Of a stretch of 64,000 bases of DNA, positions 15,353 through 58,804 are shown piece after piece. The stretch spans positions 1 through 64,000 of the forward strand of contig JAUIGE010000019.1 in NCBI GenBank assembly GCA_030430205.1, given 5' to 3'. Under the pieces are notes generated by a model. The model did no database searches, had not been told where the DNA came from, and saw only the letters and a program-made list of their open reading frames with translations. Source of the DNA: Bacteroidia bacterium. GTDB lineage: Bacteria > Bacteroidota > Bacteroidia > J057. Every line of letters begins with the position of its first letter. Position 1 is the first letter of the stretch. Both the position numbers and the translations under genes were made by a program.

Positions 15353-16096
15353 TCAATTTCTTCGGATCAAATCCGAAACAAAAACAAATTCCTCCAGAGG
15401 CCCGGAGGTTATAGCCAAAATCGCCTTATTATCCCCTTCCCATTCCTTTTTTCCTTTATACAAAAACATGATATTATCGCCAATATTGACGACAGAGTTC
15501 ATATCATGAGACACCACAACGGTGGTCATTTCATACTCATAGGTAAGCTCCTGTATCAATTCATCTATGACCTTGGCGGTCAGGGGGTCCAGGCCGGAGT
15601 TGGGTTCGTCTACGAAAAGGTAATTGGGATTCATGGCGATCGCACGGGCGATGCCTACCCGCTTCATCATACCTCCGGAAAGCTCGGAGGGGTATAGTTT
15701 TTCAGATCCGGGCAGCTTGACCCGCTCCAATACAAAAGCAACCCGATCTCTGTTTTCGGCAACAGAGTTTTTGGTAAACATTTGCAAAGGGAAAGTGACA
15801 TTTTGCTCCACGGTCATGGAGTCAAAGAGGGCGCTGCCCTGAAAAAGCATACCTATATTTTTGCGCAATTCGCGCTTGGTGGTCATGTCACAATGGTGAA
15901 AATCTACCCCATCAAAAATCACTTTGCCTTCATCAGGCTCCATCAAGCCTACAATTGACTTCAACATCACGCTCTTTCCGCTTCCGCTCGCGCCAATAAT
16001 CATGTTGATTTTCCCTTTGTGAAAGGTGAAATCTATGCCCTGAAGGACATGCTTGTCTCCGAAAGATTTGTGAAGATTTTGGACTTCGATTGCCAT
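15353..16096 (-). CDS. mlaF: ABC transporter ATPase, MlaF-like
   Basis: 247 aa from the chosen ATG (MAIEVQNLHKSFGDKHVL). Walker A GASGSGKS, signature LSGGMMKRVGIARA, Walker B YLFVDEPNSGLDP, H-loop VVSHD. The pattern and the adjacent MlaE permease identify it as the ATPase of an Mla-type lipid (glycerophospholipid) transporter at the inner membrane. The frame stays open 40 codons further upstream, but that part is only translated heptamer repeat (KPETQNP-type) and the end of mlaE, so it was excluded. No MlaD or other Mla gene is adjacent. Confidence 0.9.
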   Translation of the reverse strand: MAIEVQNLHKSFGDKHVLQGIDFTFHKGKINMIIGASGSGKSVMLKSIVGLMEPDEGKVIFDGVDFHHCDMTTKRELRKNIGMLFQGSALFDSMTVEQNVTFPLQMFTKNSVAENRDRVAFVLERVKLPGSEKLYPSELSGGMMKRVGIARAIAMNPNYLFVDEPNSGLDPLTAKVIDELIQELTYEYEMTTVVVSHDMNSVVNIGDNIMFLYKGKKEWEGDNKAILAITSGPLEEFVFVSDLIRRN

Positions 16097-16103
16097 GGGG
16101 AGG

Positions 16104-16166
16104 GAGTTTTGGGTTTTGGGTTTCGGGTTTTGGGTTTCGGGTTTTGGGTTTTGGGTTTTGGGTTTT
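16104..16166. repeat. Nine-unit 7-bp tandem repeat between mlaE and mlaF
   Basis: Exactly nine units: GAGTTTT once, then GGGTTTT or GGGTTTC eight times on the plus strand (AAAACCC/GAAACCC on the coding strand). It overlaps the mlaE stop codon (16165-16167) and ends 7 bases before the mlaF ATG, so it makes up nearly the whole spacer. Its runs of three G with 4-base loops on the template strand fit a G-quadruplex pattern. Confidence 0.95.
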
Positions 16167-16905
16167 ATAGGAGTAGTTCTGCGACGAGGTAGTCTGCGAC
16201 GACCATTGCCAGGCAACTGAAAACCACAGCACGGGTGGAGGCCTCTCCCACTTCCAGCGCACCACCGGAGGTATAGAAGCCCTGGTATGCAGAAATGGAT
16301 GAAATCAAAAAGCCATAAATCACTGCTTTGATATACATCACCACGATCTGAAAGCCATCATAATATTCGGTCATTCCCTGGGAAAACTCAGTGACGGTCA
16401 CTTCTCCACCAGCCTGGCCTGCAAACATCCCTCCCACTACCATCAGAAAAGCTGAAATGGTAATCAAAACCGGAAAGGAGATCATGCCCGCAACGATGCG
16501 GGGAATCAGCAAATAACCTTTAGAATTGATGCCCATCACCTCCAGCGCATCTATCTGCTCGGTGACGCGCATGGTCCCAATCTGGGAAGCGATATTCGAG
16601 CCGATACGGCCCGCCAGGATAAAAGACAGCACCGTAGGTGCCAGCTCCAGGATAGAGGTAGCCGCCACCACGCTCCCAATAATCGAATCCGGCAGCAAGC
16701 CCGTCTCCAACTGATAAGCGATTTGGATGGTTTGTACCCCTCCTATAAAGGTAGAGATGATCACAACGATAAACAGACTTCCATTCGTCATGGAAACCGC
16801 CTCACGTATTGCCAACTGGTAATAAATGCTGAATTTCTCCGGCGTTTTGAATATCCCCCTCACCAGGAGAACATAGCGGCCAATGTGGTAAAATAGTTTA
16901 TACAA
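16165..16905 (-). CDS. mlaE: ABC transporter permease, MlaE family
   Basis: 246 aa, the usual length. N-terminal amphipathic segment (LFYHIGRYVLLVRGIFKTPEKF), then about five membrane helices. Family landmarks: GVQTIQIAYQLETGL, RIGSNIASQIGTMRVTEQIDALEVMGINS, and PRIVAGMISFPVL. It is the inner-membrane permease partner of the MlaF-like ATPase, moving phospholipid between membranes. The start is TTG at 16905: no ATG fits, the next Met comes only after 38 residues, and the family N-terminus begins here. A six-unit 7-bp repeat fills the gap back to mutB. Confidence 0.9.
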   Translation of the reverse strand: MYKLFYHIGRYVLLVRGIFKTPEKFSIYYQLAIREAVSMTNGSLFIVVIISTFIGGVQTIQIAYQLETGLLPDSIIGSVVAATSILELAPTVLSFILAGRIGSNIASQIGTMRVTEQIDALEVMGINSKGYLLIPRIVAGMISFPVLITISAFLMVVGGMFAGQAGGEVTVTEFSQGMTEYYDGFQIVVMYIKAVIYGFLISSISAYQGFYTSGGALEVGEASTRAVVFSCLAMVVADYLVAELLL

Positions 16906-16907
16906 AA

Positions 16908-16949
16908 TTCGTTTTTCGTTTCTCGTTTCTCTACTCTCGGCTCTCTACT
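16908..16949. repeat. Six-unit 7-bp repeat between mutB and mlaE
   Basis: Plus-strand units TTCGTTT, TTCGTTT, CTCGTTT, CTCTACT, CTCGGCT, CTCTACT. It starts 3 bases after the mutB stop codon (16953-16955) and ends 2 bases before the mlaE TTG. Units are less uniform than at 16104 but the 7-base phase holds. Confidence 0.75.
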
Positions 16950-16952
16950 CTC

Positions 16953-19085
16953 CTACCCAATCATCTCTTTAAGAATCTCTTCCGCAGCCACAGGTATAAC
17001 CGTTCCCGGTCCAAATATAGCCGTAACACCCGCATCATACAGAAATGCATAATCCTGCTGAGGAATAACTCCTCCTACAACAACGAGCATATCGTCGCGT
17101 CCCATATCCTTGAGTGCCTGAATAAGTTGCGGCACCAGGGTCTTGTGGCCTGCGGCAAGGGAAGATACCCCCACGATGTGCACATCGTTTTCTATGGCCT
17201 GGCGGGCGACTTCTTCCGGCATCTGGAAGAGGGGCCCGATATCTACATCGAAGCCCAAATCCGCAAAACTGGTGGAGATCACCTTTGCTCCTCTGTCGTG
17301 GCCATCCTGGCCCATTTTTGCGATCATAATCCGGGGGCGCCTGCCCTCCATTTCAGCAAATCGATCTGCCAGCTGCGTTACCCGCTGAAAGGTATCTTTT
17401 TGTTCCTGCATCATTTCCTGCGCATACACGCCTGATATGGTATGAATTTCGGGTTGATAACGGCCGAAGGATGCCTCCATGGCATCGGATATTTCGCCCA
17501 GACTAGCGCGATGGCGCGCTGCGATTACGGCGAGTTCCAGCAAATTGCCTTCGCCGCCTGTGGCGCAAGCCGTGATGGCTTCCAGGCTGGCCTTGACAGC
17601 CTCAGGGTTGCGGCTGGCCCGCAGGGCTGCAATCCGCTCCTTTTGCGATAGCAAAACGGCCTGGTTGTCGACTTCCCTGATTTCAAATTGGCTGTCATCT
17701 TCAGCTTTAAAACGATTCACACCGACAATTACGTCCTTGCCACTGTCAATGCGCGCCTGCTTGCGCGTAGCGGCCTCTTCGATCCGCATCTTGGGGATCC
17801 CCGCCTCAATAGCTTTCGCCATGCCGCCATAGGATTCCACTTCCTCTATCAGTTCCCAGGCTTTGTGGGCAATCTCATGAGTGAGTCGCTCCATATAATA
17901 GGAACCCGCCCAGGGGTCCACGGCACGGGTGATATTTGTCTCCTCCTGGAGATAAAGCTGTGTATTGCGCGCGATGCGCGCAGAGAAGTCCGTCGGCAAA
18001 GCGATGGCCTCATCGAAGGAATTGGTATGCAATGATTGGGTATGCCCAAAAGCTGCTGCCAGGGCCTCCACGCAAGTACGCGCGACATTGTTGAATGGAT
18101 CCTGCTCTGTCAGGCTCCAGCCTGAAGTCTGGCAATGTGTCCGCAAGGACATGGATTTGGGGTTTTGGGGCTTAAACTGCTTGACCAGTTTGGCCCAGAG
18201 CATGCGTGCTGCCCGCATTTTGGCTATCTCCATGAAAAAATTCATACCGATAGCCCAGAAAAAGGAAAGTCGCGGTGCGAAGCTGTCTATGTCGAGTCCT
18301 GCGGCGATACCCGTTCGCAGGTATTCCAGGCCATCGGCCAGGGTATAGGCGAGCTCCAGCTCGGCCGTGGCACCGGCCTCCTGCATGTGGTATCCGCTTA
18401 TAGAGATGGAGTTAAATTTGGGCATCCGCTGCGAAGCGTATTCAAATATATCTCCGATGATGCGCATAGATTCCGCAGGAGGATAGATATAGGTGTTGCG
18501 CACCATAAATTCTTTCAGGATGTCATTCTGAATGGTGCCGCTCAACTGCTCAGGCTTGACGCCCTGCTCCTCCGCAGCCACGATATAAAAGGCCATAATG
18601 GGCAATACGGCTCCATTCATGGTCATAGAGACCGACATGCGGTCGAGGGGTATCTGGTCAAAGAGGATTTTCATATCCTCCACAGAGTCAATGGCTACAC
18701 CGGCTTTGCCGACATCTCCTGCCACCCGGGGGTGGTCTGAGTCATATCCACGGTGTGTGGCCAGGTCAAAAGCTACTGAAAGGCCTTTTTGGCCAGCGGC
18801 AAGGTTGCGGCGGTAAAAAGCATTGGAGGCTTCCGCAGTAGAAAAACCCGCATATTGGCGGATCGTCCACGCCCGGCTGGCGTACATGCTGCTATAGGGT
18901 CCGCGCAAAAAAGGCGGAAATCCCGCCACGAAATCAAGGTGCTCCAGCCCCTTGAGGTCCTCCGCTGTATATACCGATTTGATCGGAATCTGCTCAGCAG
19001 TCTGCTGACTGCCGATTTCTGGTTTTTCCTTAAAGGCTTTCTTTTTCGGTTTGAAAGCCATCGACTCAAAATTTGGCCGCTTCAT
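16953..19085 (-). CDS. mutB: Methylmalonyl-CoA mutase, large (catalytic) subunit
   Basis: 710 aa from Met at 19085 ([11 protein letters not shown]). Interconverts succinyl-CoA and (R)-methylmalonyl-CoA with adenosylcobalamin. The substrate barrel shows [34 protein letters not shown] split over residues 50-90, [19 protein letters not shown] and [12 protein letters not shown]. The B12 domain has the DxHxxG motif ([10 protein letters not shown]) whose His (about residue 596) is the lower cobalt ligand. An upstream in-frame ATG at 19109 would add eight residues that are only a two-unit 7-bp repeat, so it was rejected. Its usual partner mutA lies about 10 kb upstream on the same strand. Confidence 0.97.
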
Positions 19086-19091
19086 TGAAAA

Positions 19092-19105
19092 TCGTTTTTC
19101 GTTTT
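19092..19105. repeat. Two-unit 7-bp repeat before mutB
   Basis: TCGTTTT twice on the plus strand (AAAACGA on the coding strand), between the stop of the preceding dehydrogenase gene (19115) and the mutB ATG. The same two units precede gatA at 38821-38834. Confidence 0.5.
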
Positions 19106-19114
19106 GCATTCTGC

Positions 19115-26479: not shown

Positions 26480-26484
26480 ATATA

Positions 26485-26536
26485 TCTGTTTATCTGATCT
26501 GTTTATCTGATCTGTTTATCTGATCTGTTTATTTGA
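26485..26536. repeat. Four-unit 13-bp repeat at the end of paralogue 3
   Basis: TCTGTTTATCTGA three times and TCTGTTTATTTGA once. The array contains the stop codon of paralogue 3 (26529-26531) and ends 5 bases before the start of paralogue 2. Confidence 0.95.
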
Positions 26537-29285
26537 TAATTACTTTTCCAGCTGTTTTGCTCCCGCCATTTTGAATGCGGTAATAATACATCCCTGACTG
26601 AATTTCTGCCACCGAAAGTTGTCGAAAGCTTTTTCCCTGGCCCTGCCAGCTTGTTTGCATCACTATTTTGCCCTGCAAATCGAAGAGTTCAAAAACAGCA
26701 TTCCCCTTCATTTCCTCAAAACGAAAAGCCAAAACAGCCGTTGCCGGGTTGGGAAAAACCTGGATGCCCGAGCCATCATAAGCTGTGCTTTCGACCATTT
26801 GGGAAAAATTATACTTGCCATCTGTGGTAAAAAGCTTGAGGCGGTATACATTTTTGCCGGGCAAAGGGGCAAAATCGGAAAAGCCGTAAGGGTAAATCTG
26901 TTGATTTTCTCCCAGCAAAACGACTTCTCCCAAAGTCTGAAAATGCAGCCTGTCTGGCGCACGTTGTACCTCTATGCGGCTGATTTTCGCATGTTTTTCC
27001 TTTTCTACCTCCCAATGAAGTTCCATTTGGGGTTGCACAAAAGCGACGCTCAGTTCAATTCCTGAAAAAAGGCTGTCACAGTTGGGCAAAAGAATGCCGT
27101 CAATCTGACTCGAAAGCCCGGCAGCATCTGCCACACTCAGCGAGATGCGGTAATAGAATGTTTCGCCCGTTGTACAGCCTGCCGGGCTGATGTATGCAAA
27201 AGAGCTGCGGTTGGTATCTGCCAGTTCAGGGTGAAAATGGCTGTTGTGATGGAGAAATAGCTGCCAGCTATAGCTCAGCTCGCTGCCTGCGTGCTCCAGA
27301 TCAAAGACCTCCGCTTCCAGCGGAAGCAGGCTGATGCCATCCATGGCATAATAATCGCCATCCTGAAAGCTGGAAAACGCCAGCTGAGGAGGCGTATTAT
27401 TGACGGAAATCGTCACTTCTTTGCTGCGGCTTTTGCCGGCGCTGTCCGTAAGGGTCAGGCTCACCCGAAAGGCTTTCGGAGCGCCATCCTCTGCGAGGAA
27501 AGTATGCGAAAAGCTGCTCTCGCTACGGCTCGTACCATCTCCCAGCTTCCACAGGAAGCTGATGGGCTGCCCTTCCGGATCGCGCGAGCTGCTCGCATCA
27601 AAGAAGACCGTCAGCGGGCTGGGGCCATAATCCCTGTCGTAAAACAGGTTCAGCAAAGGAGCCGGATCTACATCAAAACACACTTTGTGCAGTTGTTTTT
27701 CTTTGTAATCAATGTAATACAGGCAGCCATTTCCAGGGTGAAAGTCGAGATGGGTCACCTTGCCCGGCCCTTCATGAAAGGGCTCTATTTTGGCAGGATT
27801 GCCGAGGCTATCGCGCCAAAGCGCTTTTATCCATCCGCCATAATCAGCGAAAAAGTAGGCATCCTGATAAGGCTGAGAAAACTGGCTTTGCGTTCCAAAA
27901 GCTCCATCAATGATGCAAATGCCTTCCAATATTTCGCCCTCAAAATCAGGAATTGCCTGCGAGATGGAGGCTCCGTACATTTTTCCTTCATTGTCAAAAG
28001 CTGCAACTTCTGTCCTGGCGGGAGGATTTCCGTTGACATTGTTGTAGGCAAAAACAGGCCACCTGTGGGTAAATAAGGGGATATTTCCCTTTATCTCCCT
28101 GCTTGAATCGCAGGGATTCAGCCAATGTGGCAATTGATTTTGCAAGCTGTCAACCACCAGATCATGAAAGTAAAAGTGGCTTTCGCATGCTAAAGGATTG
28201 GGAGCGTCCAGGTTGTAGCGGGCTTGATTTCTAAAACCTGCATTTTTCTCAAAACCTTCCCAAAGCGGCCAGCCAAAGTTCTGCCCAGCACGGGTGATGT
28301 GATTGAGTTCTTCCCAGCGGATAGCGCCGACATCACTGACCATCAGCTCGCCGGGCTGCCCCAGCTCCGGATCATGCTCGCCGGTGCCCGGCACCAGGCT
28401 CATGCGAAAGGGATTTCGCAATCCCAGGGCCCAAACCCGCGAGCGCGGCGCAGAAGGCGCCTCCGGATCATAAAAAGGATTGCTCGGCAAGCCTTCGCCC
28501 GTCTCCGGATCGATCCGGAGGATCTTGCCGTTGTGGCAATCGACGAGTTGGGAGCGGTAAGCGCCCACATTTTCCTTTTCGCTGATGATCCCATCGGCGA
28601 GCGCCTGTAGGTAATAGGAGGTCGGATGACTACCGGCATCATCGGCTTCGAAGGAGCTTCCATCGCCGTAGGCGACGAGCAGGCTGCCATCTACCCCAAA
28701 AAGCAGATCTCCGATGCCATGAGAGCCGTGAAGCAAAGGAACGCCATTTGTCTTTTCGGTGCCTATCAGCACTTTGCGGCTGCCAGGAACTACTTCGCTG
28801 AAGTTTTTGTTTTTGTCGAGCGTATAGCGCGTCAATCGGCCAATACTGGCCTCATGGGTGGCGTTTCTGTTGGGGTCGTAGGCAGTGGTGCCAAAGCGTA
28901 GCAGGTGGTGCCGGTCTACGGCATAGTTGAGATAGACGTAGCCATTGTTGGTGAAATTGGGGTGAAGGGCGACCGCCAGCATACCGTGGTCCAGAAAGAA
29001 GGCAACTTCTTCGCTGATGTCGAGGATGGGTGGTTCTGTTTTTTTGTCATTTTCAACCTTATACAACCTACCGGCACGCTCCCAGGCATACATTCGGTTT
29101 TCTTCATCAAATACAAATCCGGCGATATGATCCCATGAGGATGGGCTCATTTCATCCACAAAGCCATCAGGCAATTGGGAAAAAGAAGGGAGAGGAAATA
29201 CAAGGACACTGACAAAGCAGATTTTTAAGATAAAAAATGCAGTAAAGCTTAAATGATCTACACCACGCAAAACATTTTTAATCAT
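26529..29285 (-). CDS. PQQ-type sugar dehydrogenase/PKD/T9SS protein, paralogue 3
   Basis: About 918 aa from the Met of MIKNVLRGVDHL, which best fits a signal peptide (ILKICFVSVLVFPLPSFSQ); ATGs at 29306 and 29321 are alternatives. Propeller domain with [46 protein letters not shown] and GQNFGWPLWEGFEK; PKD domain (FLWKLGDGTSRSESSFSHTF), where the usual WDFGDG reads WKLGDG; Ig-like region; type A sorting domain (QVFPNPATAVLAF...GMYYYRIQNGGSKTAGKV). It is the first gene after mutA and probably shares its transcript: the mutA stop lies about 66 bases upstream. Confidence 0.85.
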   Translation of the reverse strand: MIKNVLRGVDHLSFTAFFILKICFVSVLVFPLPSFSQLPDGFVDEMSPSSWDHIAGFVFDEENRMYAWERAGRLYKVENDKKTEPPILDISEEVAFFLDHGMLAVALHPNFTNNGYVYLNYAVDRHHLLRFGTTAYDPNRNATHEASIGRLTRYTLDKNKNFSEVVPGSRKVLIGTEKTNGVPLLHGSHGIGDLLFGVDGSLLVAYGDGSSFEADDAGSHPTSYYLQALADGIISEKENVGAYRSQLVDCHNGKILRIDPETGEGLPSNPFYDPEAPSAPRSRVWALGLRNPFRMSLVPGTGEHDPELGQPGELMVSDVGAIRWEELNHITRAGQNFGWPLWEGFEKNAGFRNQARYNLDAPNPLACESHFYFHDLVVDSLQNQLPHWLNPCDSSREIKGNIPLFTHRWPVFAYNNVNGNPPARTEVAAFDNEGKMYGASISQAIPDFEGEILEGICIIDGAFGTQSQFSQPYQDAYFFADYGGWIKALWRDSLGNPAKIEPFHEGPGKVTHLDFHPGNGCLYYIDYKEKQLHKVCFDVDPAPLLNLFYDRDYGPSPLTVFFDASSSRDPEGQPISFLWKLGDGTSRSESSFSHTFLAEDGAPKAFRVSLTLTDSAGKSRSKEVTISVNNTPPQLAFSSFQDGDYYAMDGISLLPLEAEVFDLEHAGSELSYSWQLFLHHNSHFHPELADTNRSSFAYISPAGCTTGETFYYRISLSVADAAGLSSQIDGILLPNCDSLFSGIELSVAFVQPQMELHWEVEKEKHAKISRIEVQRAPDRLHFQTLGEVVLLGENQQIYPYGFSDFAPLPGKNVYRLKLFTTDGKYNFSQMVESTAYDGSGIQVFPNPATAVLAFRFEEMKGNAVFELFDLQGKIVMQTSWQGQGKSFRQLSVAEIQSGMYYYRIQNGGSKTAGKVIIK

Positions 29286-37500: not shown

Positions 37501-37512
37501 GTTTCTGATTTT

Positions 37513-37568
37513 CTCTGTTCTCTGTTCTCTGTTCTCTGTTCTCTGTTCTCTGTTCTCTGTTCTCTGTT
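37513..37568. repeat. Eight-unit 7-bp repeat
   Basis: CTCTGTT eight times without error on the plus strand (AACAGAG on the coding strand). It abuts the TAG of the propeller gene (37569-37571) with no intervening base and ends 12 bases before the TSUP ATG. Perfection of the copies suggests recent expansion. Confidence 0.97.
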
Positions 37569-38450
37569 CTACTTCCTATAAGCCACCACCGCCATCTTGC
37601 TCCCATCCGGGCTGATCGCCAGGCGGTAAAAATCACCGATTTCAAGCTCGCCCACAAAGCGCCAATCGGTATCTTTTCCCGGAATAAACATATACAAACG
37701 CCCTTCTGAGCCCATCAGCATATAGCCTTCCGGTGACCAGCAAAAGTCTTCCTTGCCTTTCAGACAGCTTACCAGTGGAGTGGTTTCTCCTGTAATAAAG
37801 CCCAGCTTCTGAATCTGCCAATTTGTGCTATCCCGCTTATCTACATAAGTCAGGGAATATTCATTGGGAATCATGTGTATGGATCGCCCAACGTTTTGCT
37901 GGATCAAAGAGCCGTCACGACCGTCTATATAGTAGGTTTGCAGAACAAAAGGCTCCGGTAGTAAAAAGGCAGCCAGGGAGAGGTGATCTATCCAGCTAAA
38001 ATAGCCCACTCCTTTTGCCTCCGGCAACAAAAGCACAGGCCTTCCTCCTGCCCGCATGGGAAATTTCCATATCCGCTGGGTTTCGCCATCGGCCTCCACC
38101 CGCACCACGGAAAAATAGCGTTTTCCAGGAATAGGCTGAGGGGAATATTCGCTTTCGGCTGTCTCGGTAAGGCGGAGGATGCTGCCTTTGGCTATTTGAT
38201 ACTGGTAAATATCTGTCTGATCACCCCCGTCTCTGTCCGAGCTAAAAAGCAAGCTTTTGCTGTCAGGCGTAAAAGCCGGTTGGTTATCATAACCCTCACG
38301 GTCTGTGACCTGTATGGGGTTGTAAAAATTCACCCGACCGTTTATCAGGCTGATGTCAAAAAGGTAAATATCCGTCGCAGGTACCTGAGCCCAACTTATC
38401 TCTGGGAGCAGAAAGCAACAAAACGCCAGGATAAAACTAAAAAACTTCAT
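37569..38450 (-). CDS. Secreted TolB/PD40-type beta-propeller protein
   Basis: 293 aa with signal peptide (FSFILAFCCFLLPEISWAQ). PD40-type blades are visible: QPAFTPDSKSLLFSSDRDGGDQTDIYQY (split by the family pattern at residues about 55-82), SPQPIPGKRYFSVVRVE, DFCWSPEGYMLMGSEG and LAISPDGSKMAVVAYRK at the C-terminus. Such propellers are protein- or ligand-binding scaffolds in the periplasm. It lacks the N-terminal domain of true TolB. No partner is encoded alongside, so the function is open. Confidence 0.7.
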   Translation of the reverse strand: MKFFSFILAFCCFLLPEISWAQVPATDIYLFDISLINGRVNFYNPIQVTDREGYDNQPAFTPDSKSLLFSSDRDGGDQTDIYQYQIAKGSILRLTETAESEYSPQPIPGKRYFSVVRVEADGETQRIWKFPMRAGGRPVLLLPEAKGVGYFSWIDHLSLAAFLLPEPFVLQTYYIDGRDGSLIQQNVGRSIHMIPNEYSLTYVDKRDSTNWQIQKLGFITGETTPLVSCLKGKEDFCWSPEGYMLMGSEGRLYMFIPGKDTDWRFVGELEIGDFYRLAISPDGSKMAVVAYRK

Positions 38451-45484: not shown

Positions 45485-45597
45485 GAGTTTGGGGTTTCGG
45501 GTTTCGGGTTTCGAGTGACCACCCGAAACGCGAAACCCAAAGCCCGAAACCCGAAACGCAGAACCCGAAACGCAGAACCCGAAACCCAAAACCCGCC
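45485..45597. repeat. Inverted pair of 7-bp repeat arrays between lon and esterase gene
   Basis: Left arm 45485-45512: GAGTTTG, then GGGTTTC three times. After a short loop, the right arm at 45521-45597 has eleven units of ACCCGAA and variants (ACGCGAA, ACCCAAA, GCCCGAA, ACGCAGA). The arms are complementary and can fold in the message. The array starts 2 bases after the lon TAG and ends 7 bases before the esterase ATG. Confidence 0.95.
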
Positions 45598-49954: not shown

Positions 49955-50002
49955 AGAGGATGCGATAATTAGAGGATGAGAGGATTTGATAATTCGAGGA
50001 TG
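49955..50002. repeat. Imperfect tandem repeat between lepA and barrel gene
   Basis: GAGGATG occurs four times (with TTAGAGGATG, AGAGGAT and TCGAGGATG contexts) interspersed with GATAATT. The last copy supplies the ATG of the next gene. The spacing is 8-17 bases, so it is not a pure heptamer array. Confidence 0.6.
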
Positions 50003-50620
50003 AAGAAATTTTGCTTTATACAAAGCTTTTTGTGGGCTTGGGCTTTTTGGGCTCCGGGCCTGGTTCAAGCCCAGAATCTGGGCGGAGGATTGGCTTTGGG
50101 GATGAATTTCAGCCAGATAGATGGCGACCATGAAGGCGGATTCCGCAAGTTGGGCATGGCCATGGGAGGCTATGTGGTTTTTCAGATCAACGACAAACTA
50201 CAGCTTCAGCCCGAAGTAAGCTGGGACCAGCTGGGCAGTGTCTCCAAAGAAGGCTTCTTTTCCAATCGCTTCAATTATTTCTCCTTTCCCGTTCTCCTCA
50301 ATTTTCAAATCCCCATCACGATAGGTGATGAGCCCCGTATGCTGAAATTGCAGGCAGGGCCTGTGCCCAGCGTCCTCATCAATGCAAAAGACAAATTGCG
50401 GACGCCTCCCTTTGACGACATCTCAGAGAGCTTCAAAAGTCTGGATATACGCGGCACCGTGGGTGCGGTATTCGAAATGAACTACAGGCTGGCGGTCAGC
50501 CTGCGTTTTGGCAACTCGCTCATTCCTTTTGCCAAAGGAACATCCACCCGCTTCCCCCAGGGTGGCCCCTGGCATAAATACCTACAGCTTTCCCTGAGGC
50601 TCGCCCTCGTAAAGCCCTAA
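50000..50620 (+). CDS. PorT-like outer-membrane beta-barrel protein
   Basis: 206 aa from the ATG of MKKFCFIQSFLWAWAFWAPG; signal peptide ends VQAQ. The mature part is a small eight-stranded barrel pattern (GGGLALGMNFSQIDGD, KLQLQPEVSWDQLG, YFSFPVLLNFQI, LKLQAGPVPSVLIN, GTVGAVFEMNY, YLQLSLRLALVKP), typical of the outer membrane beta-barrel (PorT/OmpW-like) family of Bacteroidota. Function unknown; a true T9SS PorT role cannot be claimed. The in-frame codons upstream come from the GAGGATG repeat. Confidence 0.75.
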   Translation: MKKFCFIQSFLWAWAFWAPGLVQAQNLGGGLALGMNFSQIDGDHEGGFRKLGMAMGGYVVFQINDKLQLQPEVSWDQLGSVSKEGFFSNRFNYFSFPVLLNFQIPITIGDEPRMLKLQAGPVPSVLINAKDKLRTPPFDDISESFKSLDIRGTVGAVFEMNYRLAVSLRFGNSLIPFAKGTSTRFPQGGPWHKYLQLSLRLALVKP

Positions 50621-52751: not shown

Positions 52752-52763
52752 GGGAATTGTTTC

Positions 52764-52833
52764 GGGTTTTGAGTTTTGAGTTTCGAGTTTTGAGTTTCGA
52801 GTTTCGAGTTTCGGGTTTCGGGTTTCGGGTTTC
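52764..52833. repeat. Ten-unit 7-bp repeat before aspartate kinase
   Basis: Plus-strand units GGGTTTT, six GAGTTTY, and three GGGTTTC, in exact 7-base phase, ending in a run of G. On the coding strand it reads CCCGAAA/CTCGAAA. It ends 12 bases before the aspartate kinase ATG; the upstream gene stops at 52889, so unlike other loci it is about 55 bases from the stop codon. Confidence 0.95.
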
Positions 52834-52888
52834 GGGGGGATAAAAGCGGGTGCAAAATTGGCTTTTATCTTTTCTTTTTTCAAATAAA

Positions 52889-57696: not shown

Positions 57697-58254
57697 TTAT
57701 CTGTTGTAGGGTTCGTATTGCATTTTCACCACAACCGTGACAAATTCTGCGATGTTATCTCTGACGACTTTGGGAATGCTGATGTCAAAGTCAGCTACTA
57801 CCAGCTCAAAGGTAGAAACGCCCGTGATTTTACCGTCCTCAACGGTAAGGCTACCTTTAGCTTCCATTTCTTTTTTTACCCCATGAATTTCCATCTCTCC
57901 TTTAATCGTAACCGGGTATTTACCGGGAGTGGAAAAATTCACTTTGTCCAGGTTGGTGATTTTACCATTGAATTTGGACTTGGGAAACTTGTCTGATTCA
58001 ATGTATTTCTCATTGAAGTGCTCCTGCATGGTCGCCTGCTCAAAGTTAAATCCTTTCATCAAAACAGAAAATGCAATGCTGCCATCTTCCGTATCCAACA
58101 TGGAAATAACCTGTTCATTTTTGGCTTCAATGTCCTCCAAAGGCGCCTTAGAGATAAAATCAATGGTACCTGTTTTGGTGAAAAATTTCTGAGCCTGCAA
58201 GCCCATCATCAGGGCGAAGCTCAACAGCAAAAAACTTGTCGTTTGTTTTAACAT
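57697..58254 (-). CDS. YceI family protein
   Basis: 185 aa with signal peptide (TSFLLLSFALMMGLQAQ). The lipocalin-like YceI fold shows IDFISKAPLEDIEAKNEQV, the conserved MQEHFNEKYIESDKFPKSKF core, GEMEIHGVKKEMEAKG and FDISIPKVVRDNIAEFV. YceI proteins bind polyisoprenoid-type lipids in the periplasm; this one may carry a quinone or isoprenoid cofactor in the electron-transfer setting suggested by its neighbours (inference). A seven-unit 7-bp repeat lies between it and the upstream cytochrome gene. Confidence 0.92.
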   Translation of the reverse strand: MLKQTTSFLLLSFALMMGLQAQKFFTKTGTIDFISKAPLEDIEAKNEQVISMLDTEDGSIAFSVLMKGFNFEQATMQEHFNEKYIESDKFPKSKFNGKITNLDKVNFSTPGKYPVTIKGEMEIHGVKKEMEAKGSLTVEDGKITGVSTFELVVADFDISIPKVVRDNIAEFVTVVVKMQYEPYNR

Positions 58255-58276: not shown

Positions 58277-58325
58277 TTTCGTTTTTCTCACTTCCCGCCT
58301 CTCGCTTCCCGCCTCCCGCCTCTCC
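58277..58325. repeat. Seven-unit 7-bp repeat
   Basis: Plus-strand units TTTCGTT, TTTCTCA, CTTCCCG, CCTCTCG, CTTCCCG, CCTCCCG, CCTCTCC. It meets the stop codon of the cytochrome gene (58325-58327) and lies 22 bases before the YceI ATG. Coding strand units are CGGGAAG/CGAGAGG, purine-rich. Confidence 0.8.
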
Positions 58326-58764: not shown

Positions 58765-58796
58765 CAAATCTACTCATCCGCAAATCTACTCATCCG
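58765..58796. repeat. Two-unit 16-bp repeat between the cytochrome genes
   Basis: CAAATCTACTCATCCG twice, followed by a partial third copy (CACATCTGCTAA) that runs into the stop codon of the CX4CH gene (58805-58807). Confidence 0.85.
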
Positions 58797-58804
58797 CACA
58801 TCTG

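Follow-up and report, generated by a model that had tools for sequence, protein, structure and literature searches.

Heptamer arrays in the window

The window, that is, the whole 64-kb stretch of DNA analysed, contains tandem arrays of 7-bp units at six loci (Table 1). A first-pass annotation had listed these as six loci with 6–15 units of exactly 7 bp; all six exist, but the description was slightly generous for the degenerate arrays at 16908 and 58277, the former being divided by the software TRF into stretches of 3.3 and 3.6 units. As that annotation stated, five of these loci have an array whose start coincides with the upstream stop codon or is at most 4 nt away from it, the exception being the array at 52759–52836, the only one away from a stop, for which the nearest upstream stop (52889) is ~53 nt off. 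The array at 16106–16166 overlaps the MlaE stop (16165) by 2 bp and lies 9 nt from the ABC ATPase start (16096), with its G-rich strand directed outward from that start. Downstream of the Lon gene, the C-rich arm and the G-rich arm preceding it form a long G..C hairpin. The array at 58277–58322 is 22 nt from the ATG at 58254 of a YceI-like gene.

Table 1. Positions of the heptamer arrays in the 64-kb window and their distances to neighbouring gene boundaries
Feature	Position	Strand	Units	Gene boundaries
AACNCRA-family array	16106..16166	-	8.7 units; AAACCCG/AAACCCA on coding strand	
GAGANNN-family array, degenerate	16908..16952	-		adjoins methylmalonyl-CoA mutase TAG; 2 nt to MlaE TTG start
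GAGAACA array	37511..37570	-	8.6 perfect units	overlaps PD40-repeat gene stop; 10 nt to TauE/SafE start
GTTTCGG G-rich arm	45487..45513	+	3.9 units	4 nt past Lon stop codon
ACCCGAA C-rich inverted arm	45521..45595	+	10.7 units	9 nt to ATG 45605
AACNCRA array	52759..52836	-	11.1 units	7 nt to aspartate/amino-acid-kinase-family start (52751)
GAGANNN-type array, degenerate	58277..58322	-	GAGGCGG/GAAGCGA	adjoins cytochrome-like gene TAG at 58325

Repeats of other lengths are also present in the window. A 13-bp tandem repeat (ATCTGTTTATCTG) occurs in four copies between two large genes (26484–26537), and spacers near gene ends hold a 16-bp repeat (58765–58803, 2.4 copies) and a 24-bp repeat (49955–50003, 2 copies).

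Genome-wide survey of tandem repeats

Arrays were counted by lag match for periods of 4 to 24 in 2.18 Mb (~30%) of the 7.24-Mb, 80-contig assembly, a sample taken contig by contig and not randomly. Period 7 accounted for 94 arrays and all other periods for three or fewer each, save 14 (31 arrays) and 21 (11 arrays); the dominance of period 7 over periods that are not its multiples, for which a genome-wide scan had been proposed in the first-pass annotation, was thus borne out. At the loosest threshold, and at that threshold only, period 8 climbed to 19 arrays, against 154 for period 7. Genes were called with a home-made three-periodic Markov model, which gave 1382 genes and a coding fraction of 85%; gene starts are this model's own calls, and distances to starts are therefore approximate. 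Although called genes make up ~85% of the DNA, only 14 of 164 merged arrays lie in coding sequence. Hundreds of short heptamer arrays lie between the genes of this bacterium.

Unit families and internal order

Three families, AACNCRA (72 arrays, with units including AAACCCG, AAACCCA and AAACTCG), GAGANNN (41) and GCAGTNN (25), hold ~138 of the 154 arrays, and ACTGAAR and AATGGAT represent minor families. The conserved unit positions of AACNCRA are ~98% identical across 67 arrays, indicating that arrays are related across loci. The earlier statement that unit sequences differ between loci, and that the arrays are therefore not copies of one element, fails when the genome-wide sample is considered. 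Read on its other strand, AACNCRA is GGGTTTY, which resembles the telomere repeats of plants (TTTAGGG), a resemblance only.

Recurrence of the same families at many loci, together with the inverted pairs described below, is what would be expected of a dispersed mobile or palindromic element of the REP or MITE type moved by an enzyme. However, the loci share the periodic tract only: across the loci compared, the bases of the 5' flank showed no preferred register, and no conserved non-tandem flank or terminus common to the array copies was found. Composite arrays exist in which the family changes without loss of the 7-bp register, and by our estimate unit frequencies suffice to account for the length of the long stretches that loci have in common. 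We consider such an element very improbable.

Neighbouring units showed a 2- and 3-unit periodicity, corresponding to higher-order repeats of 14 and 21 bp (lag 2, z=2.7; lag 3, z=4.3 vs shuffled units). Duplication of several units at a time would produce this resemblance at lags 2 and 3, and the pattern therefore fits local growth. No clear gradient of unit decay was seen along the arrays.

Placement at stop and start codons

The distances of arrays to gene boundaries were compared with a null of uniform placement within the same spacers. In spacers with a slack of at least 80 bp, 24 of 71 arrays lay within 5 nt of a stop codon (expected 2.8, z=12.9), and the same was true of 67 of 154 arrays when all spacers were included (expected 28.9, z=10.6). 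Period-7 arrays are thus commoner at stops than chance would have it, as the first-pass annotation had surmised. Array edges were not enriched near starts overall, enrichment being clear only for AACNCRA.

The stop codon at sense-anchored arrays was TAG in 13 of 19 cases for GAGANNN, 14 of 17 for GCAGTNN and 11 of 19 for GGGTTTY, compared with 27% genome-wide, and in about half of the sense-anchored GAGANNN and GCAGTNN cases the stop lay within or overlapped the periodic tract. Because 7 and 3 are coprime, units that yield TAG when repeated (for example, GAGAGTA or GCAGTAG) stop all three reading frames. An array of GAGANNN or GCAGTNN growing into the end of an ORF would itself supply the stop of that ORF; since an array that invades an ORF ends it, this helps to explain why arrays appear to start at stop codons. 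Units of GGGTTTY contain no stops, and the supply of TAG leaves these arrays unexplained. Terminator-like sites were found at 3 of 90 array-anchored stops and at 107 of 1276 other stops, which is suggestive only of terminator replacement by arrays. Gene cassettes flanked by arrays were ruled out: two genes had arrays at both ends where 2.7 were expected, and array-bearing stops and starts were not concentrated on the same genes.

It had also been proposed that the arrays are unstructured, U-poor spacers for ribosome loading, which would serve initiation in a phylum with weak use of Shine–Dalgarno sequences. Part of the material fits this proposal. Of the 47 AACNCRA arrays with a start ahead of them in sense orientation, 27 lie 1–17 nt before it as AAACCC, and within 40 nt of a start no AACNCRA array had the reverse orientation; of the 84 co-directional arrays, 54 have the T-poor coding strand that had been described (T <0.15), and in 15 T exceeds 0.3. 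Other arrays behave differently. None of the GCAGTNN arrays lies within 40 nt of any start, and they begin at stops even with the next start 50–527 nt away; following stops, GGGTTTY is rich in T; many arrays sit in spacers of convergent genes, away from any start; and at least 16 spacers contain long inverted pairs. Ribosome loading is therefore unlikely as an account of the arrays as a whole.

Polarity and inverted pairs

The arrays follow a polar rule: the G-rich strand points away from the ORF, and its 5' edge sits at the ORF boundary. Of 114 arrays in spacers with a slack of at least 40 bp, 55 had the 5' edge of the G-rich strand no more than 10 nt from an ORF boundary and 8 had the 3' edge that close. 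At stops all families obey the rule clearly, at starts only AACNCRA does: downstream of stops the sense strand of GAGANNN and GCAGTNN is G-rich, and AACNCRA is present as GGGTTTY after stops and as AAACCC before starts. The direction of the G-rich strand relative to the local GC skew varied by family (24:48 for AACNCRA, 27:14 for GAGANNN), which probably reflects coding direction and not the replication strand.

It follows from this rule that the G arm comes first in inverted pairs, as was the case in all 16 paired spacers. Among the 72 AACNCRA arrays, an inverted arm was present within 25 nt past the 3' end of the G-rich strand in 25 and on the 5' flank in none. In the 14 AACNCRA spacers with paired arms, the loops between the arms were mostly 8–20 nt despite widely varying spacer lengths. 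Hairpin arms matched their own partner no better than arms swapped from other loci; compensatory hairpins were accordingly ruled out, and selection on the paired structure as such is not apparent.

The G-rich strand of AACNCRA arrays carries GGG every 7 nt, and the heptamers GGGAATC and GGGGAYT form G-quadruplexes in vitro (PMC4692102). The GGGTTTY strand might fold in this way as DNA or RNA and regulate the adjacent genes, a role proposed for the repeats of Xanthomonas and Nostoc. However, many AACNCRA units have GAG or GTG in place of GGG, and only the AACNCRA (GGGTTTY) arrays qualify as having G-quadruplex units at all: GAGANNN and GCAGTNN arrays are anchored alike, yet most of their units are without GGG tracts. 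As the GGG-poor families share the anchoring, G-quadruplexes cannot be its general cause, and we regard this explanation as unlikely.

In 60 of the 72 AACNCRA arrays the 5' edge of the G-rich strand fell at one or other of two adjacent positions of the unit, and the 3' edge had no preferred phase; a truncation control (0.37 at the main position) indicated that part of the 5'-edge peak is detection bias. A directional process might lay arrays from the ORF end in a fixed phase, adding 7-nt units outward in a manner comparable to templated terminal addition. This reading leans on the 5'-edge phase, with the bias just mentioned, and on the rule at stop and start codons, which support it weakly, and it seems a very distant prospect; if true, it would mean a fixed-phase start at the ORF end with variable 3' ends.

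Comparison with a sister species and other Bacteroidota

In a sister species that is ~74% identical in DNA, sense arrays of the AAACCC/AAAACCC type end 2–6 nt before the starts of other genes. Units of AGAACCT/TGAACCC make up 45 arrays in that species and one in the 2.18-Mb sample analysed here. Arrays were seen in both species in one orthologous spacer, the one before the kinase gene, where position and orientation agree but the units do not (AAACCCG in this genome, AGAACCC in the sister species); the other array spacers tested had lost either the adjacency of the genes or the array in the sister species, and array presence differs between the two species in the Lon and TauE spacers.

Of 80 Bacteroidota loci, 49 have MlaE next to MlaF, and in most of these the two genes overlap or lie within ~20 nt of each other; within the family of this bacterium the pair is mostly split. 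The MlaE–MlaF spacer of the present genome is 69 nt, nearly all of it array. In several genera of the family, MlaE is preceded at ~40–60 nt by a conserved element resembling TATTCGCTTTTTTCG, and the window has heptamer repeats at this place. The sister species has a period-8 array (AATGATAG) upstream of MlaE, among the few arrays seen with a period other than 7. The genes encoding the ABC ATPase, MlaE and methylmalonyl-CoA mutase, adjacent with arrays in the window (15353–19109), are on three contigs in the sister species, and arrays may mark rearranged junctions.

In 0.93 Mb covering 90 loci, most of them in other Bacteroidota, period 7 was likewise the commonest, with 17 arrays compared with no more than two for any non-multiple period, and the units in those loci are lineage-specific. 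The AACYCNN pattern was found in 62 of 395 genomes of the phylum, at low counts compared with the 154 arrays here.

These comparisons bear on the chief rival to the explanation that we prefer, namely a purely mutational origin. Replication or repair in 7-nt steps would make the arrays, which would be tolerated between genes and purged from ORFs; they would be functionless, and their polarity would be mutational as well. The dominance of period 7 with lineage-specific units across 80 unrelated Bacteroidota loci is in line with this idea, as are the different units of the sister species, the lack of co-variation between hairpin arms and the finding that the repeats of Xanthomonas are tied to no functional class (PMC4692102). 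Random placement within spacers, however, fails to account for the pile-up at stops or for arrays being oriented one way at both ends of ORFs, and had slippage begun independently from local seeds, unit families with positions conserved to 98% would not recur at many loci. A purely mutational origin is possible but, on this balance, doubtful.

Relationship to known heptamer repeats

The arrays are intergenic heptameric tandem repeats, a class known as heptameric SSR or STRR, here in a genus of Bacteroidota; this assignment is much firmer than any statement about function. The first-pass annotation knew of no named system of this kind, a view contradicted by published intergenic heptamer repeats that obey this orientation rule (PMC4692102, PMC4679880). 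Rehm et al. (2015) described heptameric GGGAATC and GGGGA(C/T)T repeats in Xanthomonas and Nostoc, which fold into G-quadruplexes in vitro and, in Xanthomonas, were associated with no functional class (PMC4692102). Those repeats share with the present arrays the 7-bp period, the intergenic location, the overlap with stops and the orientation rule, being G-rich on the coding strand after stops and on the non-coding strand before ORFs, and convergent inverted pairs occur in Xanthomonas as they do here; further points in common are the location between aligned ORFs, the rarity between divergent ones and the variation in length among relatives (PMC4692102). Unlike them, the present arrays occur in another phylum, comprise at least three unit families per genome, two of which are mostly without GGG tracts, show no preference for four units and have units that differ between sister species. 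An excess of heptamers was reported by Mrazek (2007), who, as related by Rehm et al., proposed that 7 nt reflects the contact length of the polymerase (PMC4692102).

Direct repeats of TAACTGA were described in Beggiatoaceae by MacGregor (2015), and also in Cyanobacteria and five Bacteroidetes (PMC4679880). These are likewise intergenic heptamer repeats, frequently placed immediately before start codons; some Bacteroidetes carry mixed heptamers, and indels in 7-nt steps separate close strains of Cyanothece (PMC4679880). They precede starts, whereas most of the present arrays begin at stops, and TAACTGA is absent from the consensus units of the 154 arrays. The STRR heptanucleotides of heterocystous cyanobacteria (Calothrix PCC 7601) are likewise tandem, dispersed over the genome and made of several units, but have different sequences and, as far as they are cited in PMC4692102 (its reference 39), a placement relative to ORFs that is uncharacterised. 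New here compared with the published repeats are the several families per genome and a sequence that drifts while period and polarity stay constant.

Interpretation

Taken as a whole, the explanation that we favour, and think rather probable, is that the arrays belong to the heptameric SSR class, grow and turn over locally in 7-bp steps and owe their placement to selection on transcript ends. Slippage or unequal exchange would add, remove and homogenise units locally, 7 bp at a time. Slippage or growth at stop codons had been suggested from the window, and this has held in part: growth fits the lag-2 and lag-3 periodicity and the MlaE–MlaF spacer consisting almost wholly of array, and the anchoring at stops was confirmed, but for AACNCRA starts are anchoring points too. 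Selection on transcript ends would fix placement and orientation, with a G-rich or purine-rich tract retained right after the stop and an A/C-rich tract right before the start, and the post-stop and pre-start tracts may pair as an intercistronic stem. As to function, a putative boundary role at the 3' and 5' ends of mRNA, in stability or insulation, is the likeliest candidate, though we offer it tentatively; the local growth of arrays in 7-bp steps is much firmer.

In this genome and its sister species, what stays constant (period 7, polarity and the ORF boundary) can be separated from the sequence, which drifts, and this argues against explanations based on a single sequence such as G-quadruplexes. 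Spacer heptamers have been known from scattered bacterial lineages for decades without an accepted explanation, and the present system makes a preference for 7-bp steps, and selection at gene ends, directly testable.
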